DNA of 64,000 bases, from the NCBI GenBank assembly GCA_023384105.1, contig JAHDXR010000011.1, positions 62,001 to 126,000 of the forward strand. Direction: 5' to 3'. Positions within the stretch are counted from its first letter, which is position 1, and every line of letters starts with the position of its first letter. Positions 39,969 to 47,615 of the stretch are shown one piece after another. This DNA is from Hyphomonadaceae bacterium (GTDB lineage Bacteria > Pseudomonadota > Alphaproteobacteria > Caulobacterales > Aquidulcibacteraceae). The notes below the pieces were generated by a model, which saw only the letters and a program-made list of their open reading frames with translations, was not told the origin of the DNA and did no database searches. The translations under genes were made by a program, and so were the position numbers.

Positions 39969-41051
39969 TCAGCCGACGATCTCATGCAACGCATCGCGCA
40001 ATTGGCGCAACTCATCAAAGCTGCCGGCGCTGACCCTCAGGCAGTCGGGCATCCGGTATGGTGAAAGCCCACGCACGAGAATGCCGCGAGCCGTCAGCGC
40101 CGCATCGATCTCGGCCACGCTGAGCCGCGCGCCCTCGGGGATGCGGACGGTGACGAAGTTGGCTGCAGACGGCAGCGGCCGCCAGCCGAAGCCCTCGAAC
40201 AGCGCGCTGAGTTCGGCCCTGGCCTCCTTGGCGTGGTTGACCGAGCGCTGCACGAAAGCGTCGTCGTCGAGCGCGGCGAGCGCCGCCGCCTGCGCCGGGA
40301 CGGAAAGATTGAACGGCAGCCGGATGCGGTTCAGCACGCCGGCTACGCCGGCGCAGGCATAGCCCCAGCCCACGCGCAGCGCGGCCAGGCCGTAAAGCTT
40401 GGAGAAGGTGCGGGTGATCAGCACGTTGGGCGCTTCCGACAGCGCCCAGAGTTCGCGCGCTTCGCCCTCGGCGAACTCCGCATAGGCGTGATCGAGGATC
40501 AGCAGCACGTTCTCCGGCAGGCCGGCGTGCAGGCGGACGATCTCGCTCTGGGGCAGGCATGTGCCAGTGGGGTTGGCGGGGTTGGCGACGAAGAGGATGC
40601 GCGTCTGCGCGTCCACCGCCGCCAGCATGGCGTCGACATCGACCGTATAGTCGCGTTCGGGCGCGGACTTTACGGCGCCGCCCACCGCCCGCGCCGCGAT
40701 CGCCCAGGCGGCGAACGCGTATTGCGGCTGAACGATGTTCTCGCCCGGCGCCAAATAGGCCTGGCACGCCATCGAGAAGAGTTCGTCCGAGCCCGTGCCG
40801 AACACGATGCGCGCCGGATCGAGGCCGTGCCTGGCGGCGAGCGCTTCGCGCAGCAGGTTCGCGCGCGGATCGGAATAGAGATGGAGCGTGTCGGCCGCTT
40901 CGATGTAAGCGGCGCGCGCGGCCGGGCTGCAGCCCAGCGCGTTCTCGTTGGCGGACAGCTTGATCGGCCGCGCGACGCCCGGCGCGGCCGCGCGGCCGGC
41001 GCGGTAGGGCTCGATCTCGAGGATGGAGCGCTTCGGAACCGGGCCGCTCAT
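39969..41051 (-). CDS. hisC: Histidinol-phosphate aminotransferase (functional copy)
   Basis: A complete 360-residue PLP enzyme with IKLSANENALGCSP, VFGTGSDELFSM, FVANPANPTGTCLP, LILDHAYAEFAE and the PLP lysine in TRTFSKLYGLAALRVGWGYA. It resembles alphaproteobacterial HisC. It is last in the his operon, overlapping hisIE by four bases. Having the whole catalytic set, it presumably does the transamination step that the degenerate HisC-like domain of HisB cannot do. Confidence 0.93.
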   Translation of the reverse strand: MSGPVPKRSILEIEPYRAGRAAAPGVARPIKLSANENALGCSPAARAAYIEAADTLHLYSDPRANLLREALAARHGLDPARIVFGTGSDELFSMACQAYLAPGENIVQPQYAFAAWAIAARAVGGAVKSAPERDYTVDVDAMLAAVDAQTRILFVANPANPTGTCLPQSEIVRLHAGLPENVLLILDHAYAEFAEGEARELWALSEAPNVLITRTFSKLYGLAALRVGWGYACAGVAGVLNRIRLPFNLSVPAQAAALAALDDDAFVQRSVNHAKEARAELSALFEGFGWRPLPSAANFVTVRIPEGARLSVAEIDAALTARGILVRGLSPYRMPDCLRVSAGSFDELRQLRDALHEIVG

Positions 41052-41668
41052 GCGCGCGTCTCCGCCCGGCGCGCGAGCACGGCCATCACGTCGTCAAACC
41101 GCGCGCCGCGCGCGTGCAGCAGCACGGCGCAATGATAGAAGAGGTCGGCCATCTCCTCGCAGAGCTCGGCCTTATCGCCCGCCGCGCCGGCGAGCGCGGT
41201 CTCCACGCCCTCTTCGCCGACTTTTTGCGCGATCCGCTTGGGGCCCGCCTGCACCAGCTTTGCGGTCCAGCTCTGCTCGGGCGCGGCTGCGGCGCGTTCC
41301 GCGACGGTGCGTTCCAGCGCGCCGAGCTGGCCCAGCCCGTTGGACAATTCGCCATCGAAGCAGGTTGTCGTTCCACGGTGGCAGGCGGGGCCGTTGGGAC
41401 TGACGCGCAAGAGTATGGTGTCGCCGTCGCAATCGAGCGCCACGGCGCCGACGCGCATCGTGTGCCCCGAGGTTTCGCCTTTGCGCCAACGCCCGCCGCG
41501 CGAGCGCGAGAAGAAGGTGGCTTCGCCGCTGTCCAGCGTCTCCTCCAGCGCGGCGCGATCCATGTAGGCCAGCATCAGCACTTGCAGCGTCGCCTCGTCC
41601 TGCACGATCGCCGGCACGAGGCCGCCGCTCTTGGCGAAGTCCACGCGATTCACATCGAACGCCGTCAT
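41048..41668 (-). CDS. hisIE: Bifunctional phosphoribosyl-AMP cyclohydrolase / phosphoribosyl-ATP pyrophosphatase
   Basis: The 206-residue protein joins HisI (residues about 1-110: VPAIVQDEATLQVLMLAYMD, FFSRSRGGRWRKGETSGH, ALDCDGDTILLRV, GPACHRG with the metal Cys and His) to HisE (about 115-206: KLVQAGPKRIAQKVGEEGVE, LCEEMADLFYHCAVLL). It performs steps 2 and 3 of histidine synthesis. In most alphaproteobacteria hisI and hisE are separate; the fused form is the gammaproteobacterial arrangement. Confidence 0.95.
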   Translation of the reverse strand: MTAFDVNRVDFAKSGGLVPAIVQDEATLQVLMLAYMDRAALEETLDSGEATFFSRSRGGRWRKGETSGHTMRVGAVALDCDGDTILLRVSPNGPACHRGTTTCFDGELSNGLGQLGALERTVAERAAAAPEQSWTAKLVQAGPKRIAQKVGEEGVETALAGAAGDKAELCEEMADLFYHCAVLLHARGARFDDVMAVLARRAETRA

Positions 41669-43144: not shown

Positions 43145-43734
43145 GGCAGCCTCAGGAAGTTCCGCAGGACGCGCGCGCCGGTCGCGCCCGACCGTTCGGG
43201 GTGAAACTGGCAGCCGAAAAAATTGCCTTGCGCCACCGCGGCGCCGAAGCGCGCGCCGTACTCCGCGCTCGCGATGGTTTCCGACCCGAGCGGGCAGACG
43301 TAGGAGTGGACGAAATAGGCGTAGGCGCCGTCGGCCACGCCCTCGAACAGGGGATGCTCGCATTCGCGCCTGAGCCTGGTCCAACCCATGTGCGGCGAGG
43401 GCGTCGCGCGCGAGGCCGGAAGCCGCGTCACGCGCCCCGGCAGCACGCCCAGCGTTTCCGCACCGCTTTCTTCGCTGCTCTCGTAGAGCAATTGCTGGCC
43501 CAGGCAGATGCCGAGCAGCGGGCGCGGAAAGGCTTTGAGCGTCGCCGTCAGTTTCCTTTCCCGCATCAGCTCCATCGCGCGCCCGGCCGCGCCGACGCCC
43601 GGCAGGATGACGCGCTCGGCCGCGCCGATCTGCGCCGCGTCGTCGGTCAACACCGCGTCGGCGCCCGCGCGCTCGAGCGCGAACATCACCGACGCCGTGT
43701 TGCCGACGCCGAGCTTGACCACGGCGACGTTCAT
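43138..43734 (-). CDS. hisH: Imidazole glycerol phosphate synthase glutaminase subunit HisH
   Basis: A 198-residue class I glutaminase that starts MNVAVVKLGVGNTASVMFAL. The nucleophile Cys is in PLLGICLGQQLLYE and the His-Glu pair in GCQFHPERSGATG; ILPGVGAAGRAME is the N-terminal loop. The TGATG overlap with hisB fixes the start. It feeds ammonia to HisF in the same operon. Confidence 0.95.
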   Translation of the reverse strand: MNVAVVKLGVGNTASVMFALERAGADAVLTDDAAQIGAAERVILPGVGAAGRAMELMRERKLTATLKAFPRPLLGICLGQQLLYESSEESGAETLGVLPGRVTRLPASRATPSPHMGWTRLRRECEHPLFEGVADGAYAYFVHSYVCPLGSETIASAEYGARFGAAVAQGNFFGCQFHPERSGATGARVLRNFLRLPC

Positions 43735-45161
43735 CAGATCACGCCCTTGGACGAGGGCACCGCATCGCCCTCGACGCGGATTGCCTGGCGCAACGCGCGG
43801 CCGAACGCCTTGTAGCAGGCCTCGGTCTTGTGGTGATCGTTCTCGCCGCTGACGGAGAGATGAATGGCCGCACCCATCGTCTGCGCCAGCGAGCGGAAGA
43901 CGTGCTCGGTCATCTCTGTCGGATAGGCGCCGAGCAAGGGCGCCTTGAACGCGCCGTCGAACACCAGATACGGGCGCCCGCCGAGATCGACGGACACTTT
44001 CCCTTCCGCCTCGTCCATCGGCAGCACGAAGCCGAAGCGGGCGATGCCCCGGCGCGCGGCCAGCGCCTGCGACAGCGCTCCGCCCAGCGCCAGCGCGCAG
44101 TCCTCGATGGTGTGGTGCGCATCCACGCCGAGATCGCCGGCGCATTTCAGCGTGAGCGAAAAGCCGCCATGCACCGCGATCTGCGACAGCATGTGATCGT
44201 AAAACTCGACGCCGGTGTCGATCTCAACCGGCTGCGGCCTATCGAGATCGAGTTGCACGACGACGCGCGTCTCCGCCGTCTCGCGGATCGCCTCCGCGCG
44301 CCGCGAGGGCCGCTGCGTCTCGACGCCGAACGCCGCAAGAACGCGATCGTTGCCGGCGCCGTCGCGCACGGGAATCCGCAAGGCGTCGTCTCCCGCCTTT
44401 TCCGCAGTGACGCCGAAGGCGCGCAGGCGCTGCTGGGTCTCGCCGCCGGCGGCGATCAAGACGAATGGGGCCTCCGCCTCCGCCGCCCGATGCCCGGACT
44501 CGCTCAGCGCCCGCGCGAGCCGCCTGCGCTCGGCCTTGATCTCAGCGATGCGGCGCGCCTGGGCCGGCGCGCGCACCGGGTCCAGCGCCGCCTCCGCCAG
44601 GCGCACAATCGGCGTCGGCAGCGCGTTGGGCTCGATACCCTCCGCGAGACGATTGAGCGTCGTCGGCGCGGCGATGAGTGCGCCGCAGGGCGCGCCGGCC
44701 AGCCCGTACGCTGCTTCGAGGCTGCGCAGCACGACGATGTTCTCGCTCGCCGAAGCCAGGCTCGCGAGCGAAGGCGCATCGGAAAACTCGATGAACCGCT
44801 CGTCGACGACCAGCAGCCCCGTCTCTTGCGCCAGCTCACGCGCTTGCGCAGCGGAGATGGCGGCGCCGTCCGCGGGCGGCGAAGCGACGAAGCGCGCAGC
44901 GGAAGCGCCGTCGGCGACAGGGATGCGCAGCAGCCGCGCCAGGGCCGCCACCTCCGGCACGCCGTTACTGGCGACGGCCTCGGCGGCGACGCTCCGCAGC
45001 ACGATTTCGACGCCGTGCGCCACGCCGCGCACGGGCAGCACCGCGTCCGGCGCCACGCCGTACACCTCGGCCATGCGCTTGCGCAGCGCCTCCGGCGCGC
45101 CCGGCGGCTGCTCCAGCCCGGCGCCGCCATTGACCAGCGGCGGATAAGGCGCGGCGTACAT
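43734..45161 (-). CDS. hisB: Degenerate HisC-like domain fused to imidazoleglycerol-phosphate dehydratase (HisB)
   Basis: A 475-residue fusion. Residues 287-475 are a complete dehydratase: VEFYDHMLSQIAVHGGF, VDAHHTIEDCALALG, MTEHVFRSLAQT, NDHHKTEACYKAF and SSKGVI, with all metal-binding His and Glu residues. Residues 1 to about 286 resemble an E. coli-type HisC (RKRMAEVYGVAPDAVLPVRG, LLVVDERFIEFSDAPSLASL, VVLRSLEAAYGLAGAPCGAL). However, the PLP lysine is Ala150, the NPNNPTG loop is SPPADGA and the Tyr after the Asp is Phe. So the N-terminal half should not transaminate. The TGATG overlap with hisD confirms that translation begins at the HisC-like part. Confidence 0.93.
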   Translation of the reverse strand: MYAAPYPPLVNGGAGLEQPPGAPEALRKRMAEVYGVAPDAVLPVRGVAHGVEIVLRSVAAEAVASNGVPEVAALARLLRIPVADGASAARFVASPPADGAAISAAQARELAQETGLLVVDERFIEFSDAPSLASLASASENIVVLRSLEAAYGLAGAPCGALIAAPTTLNRLAEGIEPNALPTPIVRLAEAALDPVRAPAQARRIAEIKAERRRLARALSESGHRAAEAEAPFVLIAAGGETQQRLRAFGVTAEKAGDDALRIPVRDGAGNDRVLAAFGVETQRPSRRAEAIRETAETRVVVQLDLDRPQPVEIDTGVEFYDHMLSQIAVHGGFSLTLKCAGDLGVDAHHTIEDCALALGGALSQALAARRGIARFGFVLPMDEAEGKVSVDLGGRPYLVFDGAFKAPLLGAYPTEMTEHVFRSLAQTMGAAIHLSVSGENDHHKTEACYKAFGRALRQAIRVEGDAVPSSKGVI

Positions 45162-46450
45162 CAGCGCGCCCGCACGTCGGCGGCGCGGGCGTGCGCCTCA
45201 AGCCCTTCGAGCCGCGCCAGGCGCGCCGCCGGCCCGGCAAGCGCGCGCGCGCCAGCCTCGCTCAGCTGCTGCACCACGAAGCTCTTCATGAAGGACGCCA
45301 CGGTGACGCCGCTCCAGCACCGTGCGGCGCCGTCGGTCGGCAGCACGTGGCTGGGGCCGCAGATATAGTCGCCGAACGTCTCGGCGCTGTAGGCGCCGGC
45401 GAACACCGCGCCGACATTGGAGAGCCGAGTGACCAGCGCGTCGGTATCGCCCACCTGCAGCGACAAGTGCTCCGGGCCGAACGCATTGGCCACATCCGCC
45501 GCTTCGCCGAGATCGCGCACCTCGATGGTGCGGGACTGGTTCAAAGCGGCGCGGGCGATGTTCGCGCGCGGCAGCGTCGCCGCCTGCCGCTCCAGTTCGC
45601 GCTGCACCTCGCCGATCAGCGCGCGGAAAGGCGTGACGAACACGACCTGCGCGTCCGCATCGTGCTCGGCCTGGCTCAACAAATCGGCCGCCACAATGAC
45701 CGGATCAGCGCCTGCGTCGGCAATGACCATGAGTTCGCTCGGCCCCGCTGGCACGTCGATGGCCGGGCCTCCGGGCAGAGCGGCCGCGTAGCGCTTGGCT
45801 TCCGTCACATAGGCGTTGCCGGGGCCGAACAGCTTGTCGGCTTTAGCGACATCGCCGGCGCCGAAGGTCAGTGCGGCGATCGCCTGCGCGCCGCCCAGCA
45901 GCCAGATGCTCTCAAGCCCCGCCGCCGCGCCCGCCGCGATCATCATCGGGTGGACGCCGCCCGCCGCGTTCGGCGGCGTCACCGCGATCCGCTGCGGCAC
46001 GCCCGCGACGCGCGCCGGCACAGCGAGCATGATCAGCGTCGAAAACAGCGGCGCGGTGCCGCCGGGAACGTAGAGGCCACAGCATTGGATCGCGCGCCAA
46101 AGCCGGCGGCACCGCGCGCCCGGCGCCGGCTCGACCTCCACCGGCTGCGGCTTGATGGCTTCGTGATACGCGGCGACATTGGCGACCGCGAGGTCGAGCG
46201 CGGCTAGATCGTCGCGGCCAAGCTCGGCCCGCGCCGCGTCCACTGCGTTTGCATCCAGCGGCAGCAGTTTCGGCGCGCGCTTGTCCAATGCGAGCGACCA
46301 GCGCTCGACGGCCGCCAACCCCTCCGCTTCGACCTCCTCGAAGATACGGCGCACCACATCCACGACCTCGGCGTCGCGGCGGCGTTTCGGCCTCGCCAGC
46401 GCATCGGCCCGTTCGGCCGCCGAGAGCGTGCTCCAGACGAACGTGCGCAT
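45161..46450 (-). CDS. hisD: Histidinol dehydrogenase
   Basis: The NAD-dependent zinc enzyme for the last two steps of histidine synthesis. From the ATG overlapping the hisG stop (TGATG) it has 429 residues, with LYVPGGTAPLFSTLIMLAVP, LFGPGNAYVTEAKRYA, DVPAGPSELMVIADAGADP, SQAEHDADAQVVFVT, FGPEHLSL and YICGPSHVLPTDG. Zinc ligands (Gln/His in SQAEHD, Asp and a C-terminal His) are in place. Confidence 0.95.
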   Translation of the reverse strand: MRTFVWSTLSAAERADALARPKRRRDAEVVDVVRRIFEEVEAEGLAAVERWSLALDKRAPKLLPLDANAVDAARAELGRDDLAALDLAVANVAAYHEAIKPQPVEVEPAPGARCRRLWRAIQCCGLYVPGGTAPLFSTLIMLAVPARVAGVPQRIAVTPPNAAGGVHPMMIAAGAAAGLESIWLLGGAQAIAALTFGAGDVAKADKLFGPGNAYVTEAKRYAAALPGGPAIDVPAGPSELMVIADAGADPVIVAADLLSQAEHDADAQVVFVTPFRALIGEVQRELERQAATLPRANIARAALNQSRTIEVRDLGEAADVANAFGPEHLSLQVGDTDALVTRLSNVGAVFAGAYSAETFGDYICGPSHVLPTDGAARCWSGVTVASFMKSFVVQQLSEAGARALAGPAARLARLEGLEAHARAADVRAR

Positions 46451-47322
46451 CACATCATCTTCTCGATCGGCAGCACCAGGATCGCCGAGGCGCCGGCGGC
46501 CTTGAGCCGCTCCAGCGTCTCCCAGAACACGGATTCCTGGCACACCGCGTGCACGGCGACGTAATCCTCCCGCCCGGCCAGCGGCGTCACGGTCGGCGCG
46601 TCCGAGCCCGGCAGGATCTCGCTGATCCGCGGCAGCGCCGCGCGCGGCGCGTTCATCATCACGTACTTGGCGTCGCGGCTCGCCGTCACGCCGCGGAAGC
46701 GCTGGGTCACGCTTTCGACGATGGGCGCGAACTGCGGGTCGAGCGGCTGAGGCGACTGGATCAGCACCGCTTCGCTGCGCGCGATGGTCTCGAACGCGGC
46801 CAGGCCGTTGGCTTCGAGCGTGGCGCCGGTCGACACCAGGTCGCAGATGACGTGGGCGAGCTTGAGCCGCGGCGCGACCTCCACGGCGCCGCGCATGGTG
46901 ACGATCTCCGCCTCGACGTCGTTCTCGCGCAAAAAACGGCTGAGCTGGCGCGGATAAGTGGTGGCGACGCGCAAGCCCTGCAACGATCTCGGCCCGTCAT
47001 AGGCGAAGCCCAGCGGCCCGGCGATCTTCAGGTCGCAGCGGCCGAAGCCGAGCGCCATGATCTCGCACGGCCCGTCTTCGGGCTTGGCGCGCTCCAGCAG
47101 CACGTTGCGCCCGACGATACCGAGATTGGCGACGCCGTCGGCGACGAATGTCGGGATGTCGTCGTCGCGCACGCGCAGCAGGTCGATCGGCGCATTCTCG
47201 ACGCGGAACAGCAGATCGTTCGCACCCTTCACCACATGCAGGCCCGCCGCCTCCAAAAGGTCGAGGCTCTTGTCGGCGAGGCGCCCGCTTTTCTGGACGG
47301 CGATGCGGAGACGCGCGCTCAT
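46450..47322 (-). CDS. hisG: ATP phosphoribosyltransferase, long form (HisG_L)
   Basis: The first enzyme of histidine synthesis. The 290-residue protein is the long, self-sufficient form with a C-terminal regulatory domain. MSARLRIAVQKSGRLADKSL, IDLLRVRDDDIPTFVADGV, VATTYPRQLSRFL, ICDLVSTGATLEANGL, then the regulatory part with GASAILVLPIEKMM closely resemble E. coli HisG. Many alphaproteobacteria instead use a short HisG with HisZ. Feedback inhibition by histidine is expected from the C-terminal domain. It overlaps yerC by four bases. Confidence 0.95.
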   Translation of the reverse strand: MSARLRIAVQKSGRLADKSLDLLEAAGLHVVKGANDLLFRVENAPIDLLRVRDDDIPTFVADGVANLGIVGRNVLLERAKPEDGPCEIMALGFGRCDLKIAGPLGFAYDGPRSLQGLRVATTYPRQLSRFLRENDVEAEIVTMRGAVEVAPRLKLAHVICDLVSTGATLEANGLAAFETIARSEAVLIQSPQPLDPQFAPIVESVTQRFRGVTASRDAKYVMMNAPRAALPRISEILPGSDAPTVTPLAGREDYVAVHAVCQESVFWETLERLKAAGASAILVLPIEKMM

Positions 47323-47615
47323 CGGCTCGCTCCCGCCTTCAGGCGGTCGAGCACGCGGCGATAGCCTTTGTAGGGCATGTCCTTGAGGAACCGCGCCACC
47401 CGCACCACCGTCGCCGTGCTCGATTCCGCCGCCTGGGCGATCTCGCGATAGGACATCTCGCCGGCGTCCAAGAGGCGCGCCACCAGCCAGCGCTCCGACA
47501 GCGCCCGTATCTCGGCGGGCGTGCAGAGGTCCTCCAGGAAGGCCTTGGCCTCGGCCCTGGTCTCCAGGGCCAGAAGCGCATCCAGCAGGTCGGGGCGGGC
47601 GGCGGCTTTGGTCAT
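47319..47615 (-). CDS. TrpR-related YerC/YecD family repressor of the his operon (candidate HisR)
   Basis: A 98-residue helical protein of the TrpR-like YerC/YecD family: LLDALLALETRAEAKAFLED, CTPAEIRALSERWLVARLLD, then a helix-turn-helix (MSYREIAQAAESSTATVVRV) and FLKDMPYKGYRRVLDRL. It is the first gene of the his operon, overlapping hisG by four bases, and a TrpR-operator-like palindrome lies 8 bp upstream of its start. I infer an autoregulated repressor of histidine synthesis. The effector is unknown; histidine is the obvious guess. Confidence 0.88.
   Translation of the reverse strand: MTKAAARPDLLDALLALETRAEAKAFLEDLCTPAEIRALSERWLVARLLDAGEMSYREIAQAAESSTATVVRVARFLKDMPYKGYRRVLDRLKAGASR

Follow-up and report, generated by a model that had tools for sequence, protein, structure and literature searches.

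A HisB dehydratase predicted to carry a folded, catalytically dead HisC-type domain that is under purifying selection

In the stretch of DNA analyzed here (the window, 64,000 nucleotides), the reading frame of the histidine-biosynthesis dehydratase HisB (IGPD) begins with a domain that resembles the aminotransferase HisC. The product of IGPD is imidazole-acetol phosphate, which HisC transaminates. A gene fusion is commonly taken to indicate a functional link, and pseudoenzymes as a rule stem from gene duplication. What, then, is this domain, and why has it been kept? A preliminary description of the locus had interpreted it as a dead HisC fused to HisB, and our analysis supports this interpretation. 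The his genes lie on one strand in the order trpR-like, hisG, hisD, fusion, hisH, hisA, hisF, hisIE and separate hisC (Table 1), with the hisH, hisA and hisF frames assigned by eye.

Table 1. Positions of the fusion protein, its parts and neighboring his genes in the window
Feature	Positions	Strand	Basis
Dead HisC-type domain, fusion residues 1-283	44313..45161	-	
Dehydratase (IGPD) domain of HisB, residues 287-475 plus stop	43734..44303	-	PF00475, 188.2 bits
Codon of Ala150, aligned with the PLP lysine (E. coli HisC K214)	44712..44714	-	alignment
Codon of Pro158, aligned with E. coli HisC R222	44688..44690	-	alignment
SPPADGA, occupying the site of the SPNNPTG loop	44862..44882	-	alignment
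Residues 142-164, former lysine block	44670..44738	-	dN/dS 0.10 in genus g16
TGATG, overlap of the fusion start with the hisD stop	45159..45163	-	
hisD	45161..46543	-	PF00815, 446.5 bits
hisIE	41048..41668	-	PF01502 and PF01503
hisG (frame matched; own start not fixed)	46450..47355	-	PF01634 and PF08029 (Pfam)
Separate intact hisC, end of the gene run	39969..41051	-	TIGR01141, 286.0 bits (cut-off 276.55)

The C-terminal part of the fusion belongs to the IGPD family (PF00475, 188.2 bits; gathering cut-off 27). Residues 98-242 match Aminotran_1_2 (PF00155) with 44.7 bits, above the gathering cut-off of 19.7, and in a computational test the N-terminal domain had the fold-type I aminotransferase fold. 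The fused domain reached 88.1 bits with the HisC equivalog model TIGR01141, under the curated cut-off of 276.55. Compared with E. coli HisC (1gex/1fg3), it is fused to HisB, falls below this cut-off and has lost the PLP lysine, the NPNNPTG loop (general form NPxxPTG), the N-terminal arm and other contacts. The substitutions reported previously, namely Ala150 at the PLP lysine, SPPADGA for the loop and Pro158 at R222, were reproduced in our alignment, and the reported TGATG overlap with hisD is present. A live enzyme with a displaced lysine was ruled out by alignment and fold. The HAD phosphatase known from E. coli HisNB, already thought not to apply here, was likewise ruled out, with the bifunctional HisNB model (NF003937) matching residues 284-475 only (270.7 bits; cut-off 443). 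Thus, judged from sequence and predicted fold, the HisB of the window is a dehydratase fused to a folded, catalytically dead HisC-type domain, an enzyme fold without its catalytic residue as in pseudoenzymes. An aminotransferase domain annotation in such fusions does not imply activity.

Residues distinguishing live from dead fusions were read from alignments. In the final alignment all 23 intact fusions had the PLP lysine, and none of the 56 dead ones did (35 from genus g16, 12 from f1, the family of the window, 5 from g51, and G138, L043, L045 and L051). Tyrosine at the position of E. coli Y55 occupied 19 of 19 intact rows of a 39-row alignment, and this column was without tyrosine in the dead rows; five g16 rows had RYP one column off, which lined up with the Y55 column in a later alignment. 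Several other pocket positions were retained. The aspartate at the D184 position, the partner of the PLP ring nitrogen, was conserved in 55 of the 56 dead domains, and R262 in 34 of 35 g16 and 11 of 12 f1 sequences. The phosphate arginine R222 was kept throughout g16 (35/35) and g51 (5/5) but lost in 12 of 12 f1 domains. Dead domains also share residues that intact fusions do not have. H49, which aligns to E. coli E86, a residue adjoining the PLP phosphate loop, was found in 35/35 g16, 9/12 f1, 5/5 g51 and 0/23 intact sequences; the counts for E177 were 35/35, 11/12, 5/5 and 0/23. P232 was present in 35/35 g16, 12/12 f1 and 5/5 g51 domains, the intact fusions having N in 23/23, and R273 in 35/35, 9/12 and 5/5, respectively, and in none of 22 itemized intact rows. 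Among G138, L043, L045 and L051, two had H49, one E177, two P232 and three R273. G138 is transitional, being almost full length, with DPTG retained, K replaced by S and R by P; its HisC half still reached 178.9 bits across positions 6-346 of the model.

The same fusion, which the preliminary description had proposed to seek in related genomes, proved widespread, with live, dead, shrunken and excised forms. IGPD was present in 95 of 101 related genomes. Of 30 genomes in the window's genus, ten carried the dead fusion and twelve a HisD-HisB protein without the HisC part, G014 ended at a contig edge, G009 had separate genes, and IGPD was not found in six. Dead fusions also occurred in G049 and G052 of the same family. 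Intact fusions were found in family f4 (G062, G070, G074, G078 and G082) and in named records including Sphingomonas, Sphingosinicella, Blastomonas and Euryhalocaulis. At 1e-25, an order-wide search with the dead-domain alignment found matches, live and dead alike, in 109 of 398 genomes and in 18 of 59 genera. The residue reading in g16 covered 36 of its 42 matches, 35 of them dead and one, G148, intact. Left out were loci doubling G genomes (L039-L042, L044, L046, L062-L064, L066, L067, L069, L070), fragments or broken frames (L061, L065, L068, L079 and, for most counts, L054), distant HisB-only loci (L071-L073, L076-L078), and G009 (separate hisB), G126 (internal stop) and G014 (cut at the contig end).

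Domain architecture varied further. In f4, four fusions (G066, G086, G090, G094) had a shrunken N-domain of 186-215 residues with a mutual identity of 23-36%, their dehydratases being 71-78% identical. In a profile comparison (score 39.7), the C-terminal half of these domains aligned to the C-terminal region of intact HisC; as controls, 40 column shuffles reached at most 19.8 and a reversed target 21.3. The profile of separate HisC proteins gave only 24.6, over a different stretch. The PLP-binding middle part was not recognizable in the four by profile comparison. Direct HisD-HisB fusions were found at L149:76-2190 (G098, f4) and at L112, L114, L115, L117, L118, L120, L127, L128, L131 and L132, with a linker of ~15 residues in f1. 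Separately, a HisD-HisC-HisB triple fusion with intact HisC occupied one stop-free frame in Sphingomonas parva (L048:5901-9539) and in an alphaproteobacterial MAG (L055:5670-9539). In L065, HisD and HisC likewise share a frame, but this locus includes unknown bases.

How often did the HisC half die? In a 58-row tree of HisD and IGPD, family f4 fell into two clades on starred branches, one of intact fusions and the other of the four shrunken fusions together with one HisD-HisB. Because these clades are sisters, a single lysine loss for all dead fusions is incompatible with the tree and was rejected. The other half of the tree held intact clades and a group (89/39) of 20 dead fusions, 12 HisD-HisB proteins and G014, the latter 13 forming one clade (99/90) inside the dead group. 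Thus, if regain is excluded, the lysine would have been lost at least twice independently and the domain removed twice. In the enlarged tree the main dead group lay on one side of a branch with a support of 79.8, not starred; fifteen rows were omitted from the second tree. A single clade of the main dead group is favored, but weakly, and therefore the deaths in f1 and f3 might be separate. G138 grouped with intact G063/G087 (SH-aLRT 92) and may represent a third lysine loss, although an AU test did not reject its placement with the main dead group (p 0.107).

The window encodes a separate HisC with both TFSKLYG and NPANPTG. Of 71 genomes whose HisC half is dead or missing (58 with dead fusion, 21 + 37, and 13 with HisD-HisB; the window is included), 69 had a separate hisC above the TIGR01141 cut-off, the exceptions being G016 (65% complete) and G134 (275.6 bits, barely below the cut-off). 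Among 32 genomes whose fused HisC half was over the cut-off (lysine read in 11; the remaining 21 intact by score), nine had a second hisC and 23 had none. Note that related genomes do not contribute independently to these counts. The SK motif was present in 41 of 43 separate HisC sequences and missing in the far outgroups L074 and L075.

Selection on the dead domain was estimated as pairwise dN/dS by NG86. The ratio was below 1 in every pair used (0.068-0.704). Among the pairs first tried, the closest gave 0.149 (G019/G023; 95% 0.098-0.212) and 0.186 (G061/G085; 0.123-0.264); other dead pairs gave 0.144-0.467, with an upper bootstrap limit ≤0.631. Medians over pairs with dS 0.1-1.0, descriptive rather than a test since pairs share branches, were 0.319 in g16 (range 0.068-0.704; 535/595 pairs; HisD 0.302, IGPD 0.156), 0.231 in g51 (2/10 pairs) and 0.529 in f1 (range 0.149-0.682; 7/66 pairs; HisD 0.257). 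The f1 constraint is thus weaker than that in g16, with G000/G052 at 0.682. Within g16 the former lysine block was the most conserved (0.10; other blocks 0.23-0.40). The dead domain is therefore under purifying selection and not freely drifting, as in a maintained pseudoenzyme. Free neutral decay is ruled out by g16, g51 and the close f1 pairs, with a weaker case for distant f1 pairs. Such a signal is expected from a role but equally from folding constraint alone, which could explain much of it.

Taken together, we consider it probable that the fused HisC died in place and was retained for a structural, non-catalytic role in the dehydratase. The ancestor was likely a bifunctional HisC-HisB protein joining two consecutive pathway steps. 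With a second, separate hisC present, the fused HisC half would have lost its lysine, loop, arm and contacts, the dehydratase half remaining active. The dead half would still fold as HisC, without covalent PLP, and have to be translated for the dehydratase to be made. Since it is predicted to fold in this way and is under purifying selection, it would have been kept as a structural part, most likely by providing a HisC-type dimer surface or by keeping the chain soluble in the IGPD particle. The dead half is dispensable: sister lineages have excised it in frame, with HisD taking its place as the N-terminal partner of HisB. We infer both the order of events and the structural role, the latter being plausible because of the purifying selection; the preliminary description had offered a scaffold, an oligomerization part or a sensor as possible roles. 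The fold, the lysine pattern, the separate hisC, G138, the trees, dN/dS and the new residues speak for the structural account. The weaker constraint in f1, the shrinkage in f4 and the twelve genus members without the domain, in which it is thus dispensable, count against it.

Alternatively, the domain could be a tolerated passenger: the dehydratase would have lost its own start, so that the dead half must be translated first, conserved only since a misfolded N-terminus would ruin HisB and lost upon any in-frame deletion. The shrinkage in f4 would fit, as would the fact that both independent removals fused HisB to HisD rather than freeing it. Likewise, the junction in the window is without a nearby ATG or GTG with a Shine-Dalgarno-like stretch, such a start being found in 7 of 81 fusions scanned. 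However, the g16 dead domain is constrained like HisD, most strongly in the former lysine block, and polar residues missing from intact fusions are near-invariant across families. Moreover, an in-frame TTG at codon 261 (44379-44381) with GGGAG upstream offers a possible internal start for a short dehydratase in the window. We regard the passenger explanation as rather unlikely.

A regulatory or docking pseudoenzyme, binding histidinol phosphate, PLP, histidine or live HisC and tuning or channeling the HisB and HisC steps, seems to us quite improbable. The retained D184, R222 and R262 positions and the new H49 at E. coli E86 would suit such a function; on the other hand, the family of the window has lost R222 in 12 of 12 domains along with the Y55 equivalent, and twelve genus members manage without the domain. 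In its most specific form, which we hold to be equally doubtful, the repurposed domain would dock live HisC as a HisC-type heterodimer on the 24-subunit dehydratase, or sense an intermediate, a reading built on the remodeled former pocket (H49, E177, P232, R273) and the kept lysine block. If true, the HisB-to-HisC step would stay channeled after the death of the fused enzyme, and a pseudoenzyme would have arisen when a bifunctional enzyme lost the activity of one half. Finally, an assembly artefact or frameshift joining two genes, named at the outset as what could refute the fusion, is extremely improbable and was rejected, as dozens of genomes share the open frame, including single-contig G023, and its codons are constrained.

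How does the fusion with a dead HisC domain compare with known systems? As in E. coli HisNB (HAD histidinol-phosphatase and IGPD), a second histidine-pathway domain lies N-terminal to IGPD, but here with the HisC fold. Live fusions (L048 of Sphingomonas parva, L052 of Blastomonas marina, G063, G074) share its architecture and origin by tree and alignment; in contrast to the window, all their examined catalytic residues are present. HisZ, which regulates short HisG, is related to histidyl-tRNA synthetase but catalytically dead; it, too, is a dead enzyme relative kept in histidine synthesis, yet it forms a separate subunit whose regulatory role is known. Fungal HIS4 and eukaryotic HIS7 are fused histidine-pathway genes with different partners (PMC1963479, available part). 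The fused his genes named there are hisD, B, N, I, E, F and H, in text that does not contain 'hisC'; the available part of PMC10138114 names the same seven, and in that of PMC6432763 'hisC-hisB' is an operon name. The preliminary description knew of no account of such a fusion, and our search of open-licence papers likewise found none of a HisC-HisB or HisD-HisB fusion, though one may be in print elsewhere. As far as these searches show, HisC-HisB, HisD-HisB and HisD-HisC-HisB are additions to the known his-gene fusions. One protein family within one bacterial order offers the live fusion, the live fusion with a second hisC, and newly dead, conserved dead, shrunken and cut-out forms. In it the domain died independently at least twice and was excised twice. 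The keeping of a dead domain thereby becomes directly testable, with catalysis of the partner, assembly, folding and a new role as candidate causes.

Two further observations concern the his genes themselves. Four genomes of the window's genus (G007, G022, G024, G025) are 92-99% complete yet without hisD, hisC (1e-40) and IGPD, and are possibly histidine auxotrophs. Directly upstream of hisG in the window lies a Trp-repressor-like gene (47319-47615, minus strand; PF01371, 74.9 bits), a possible regulator of the his genes.
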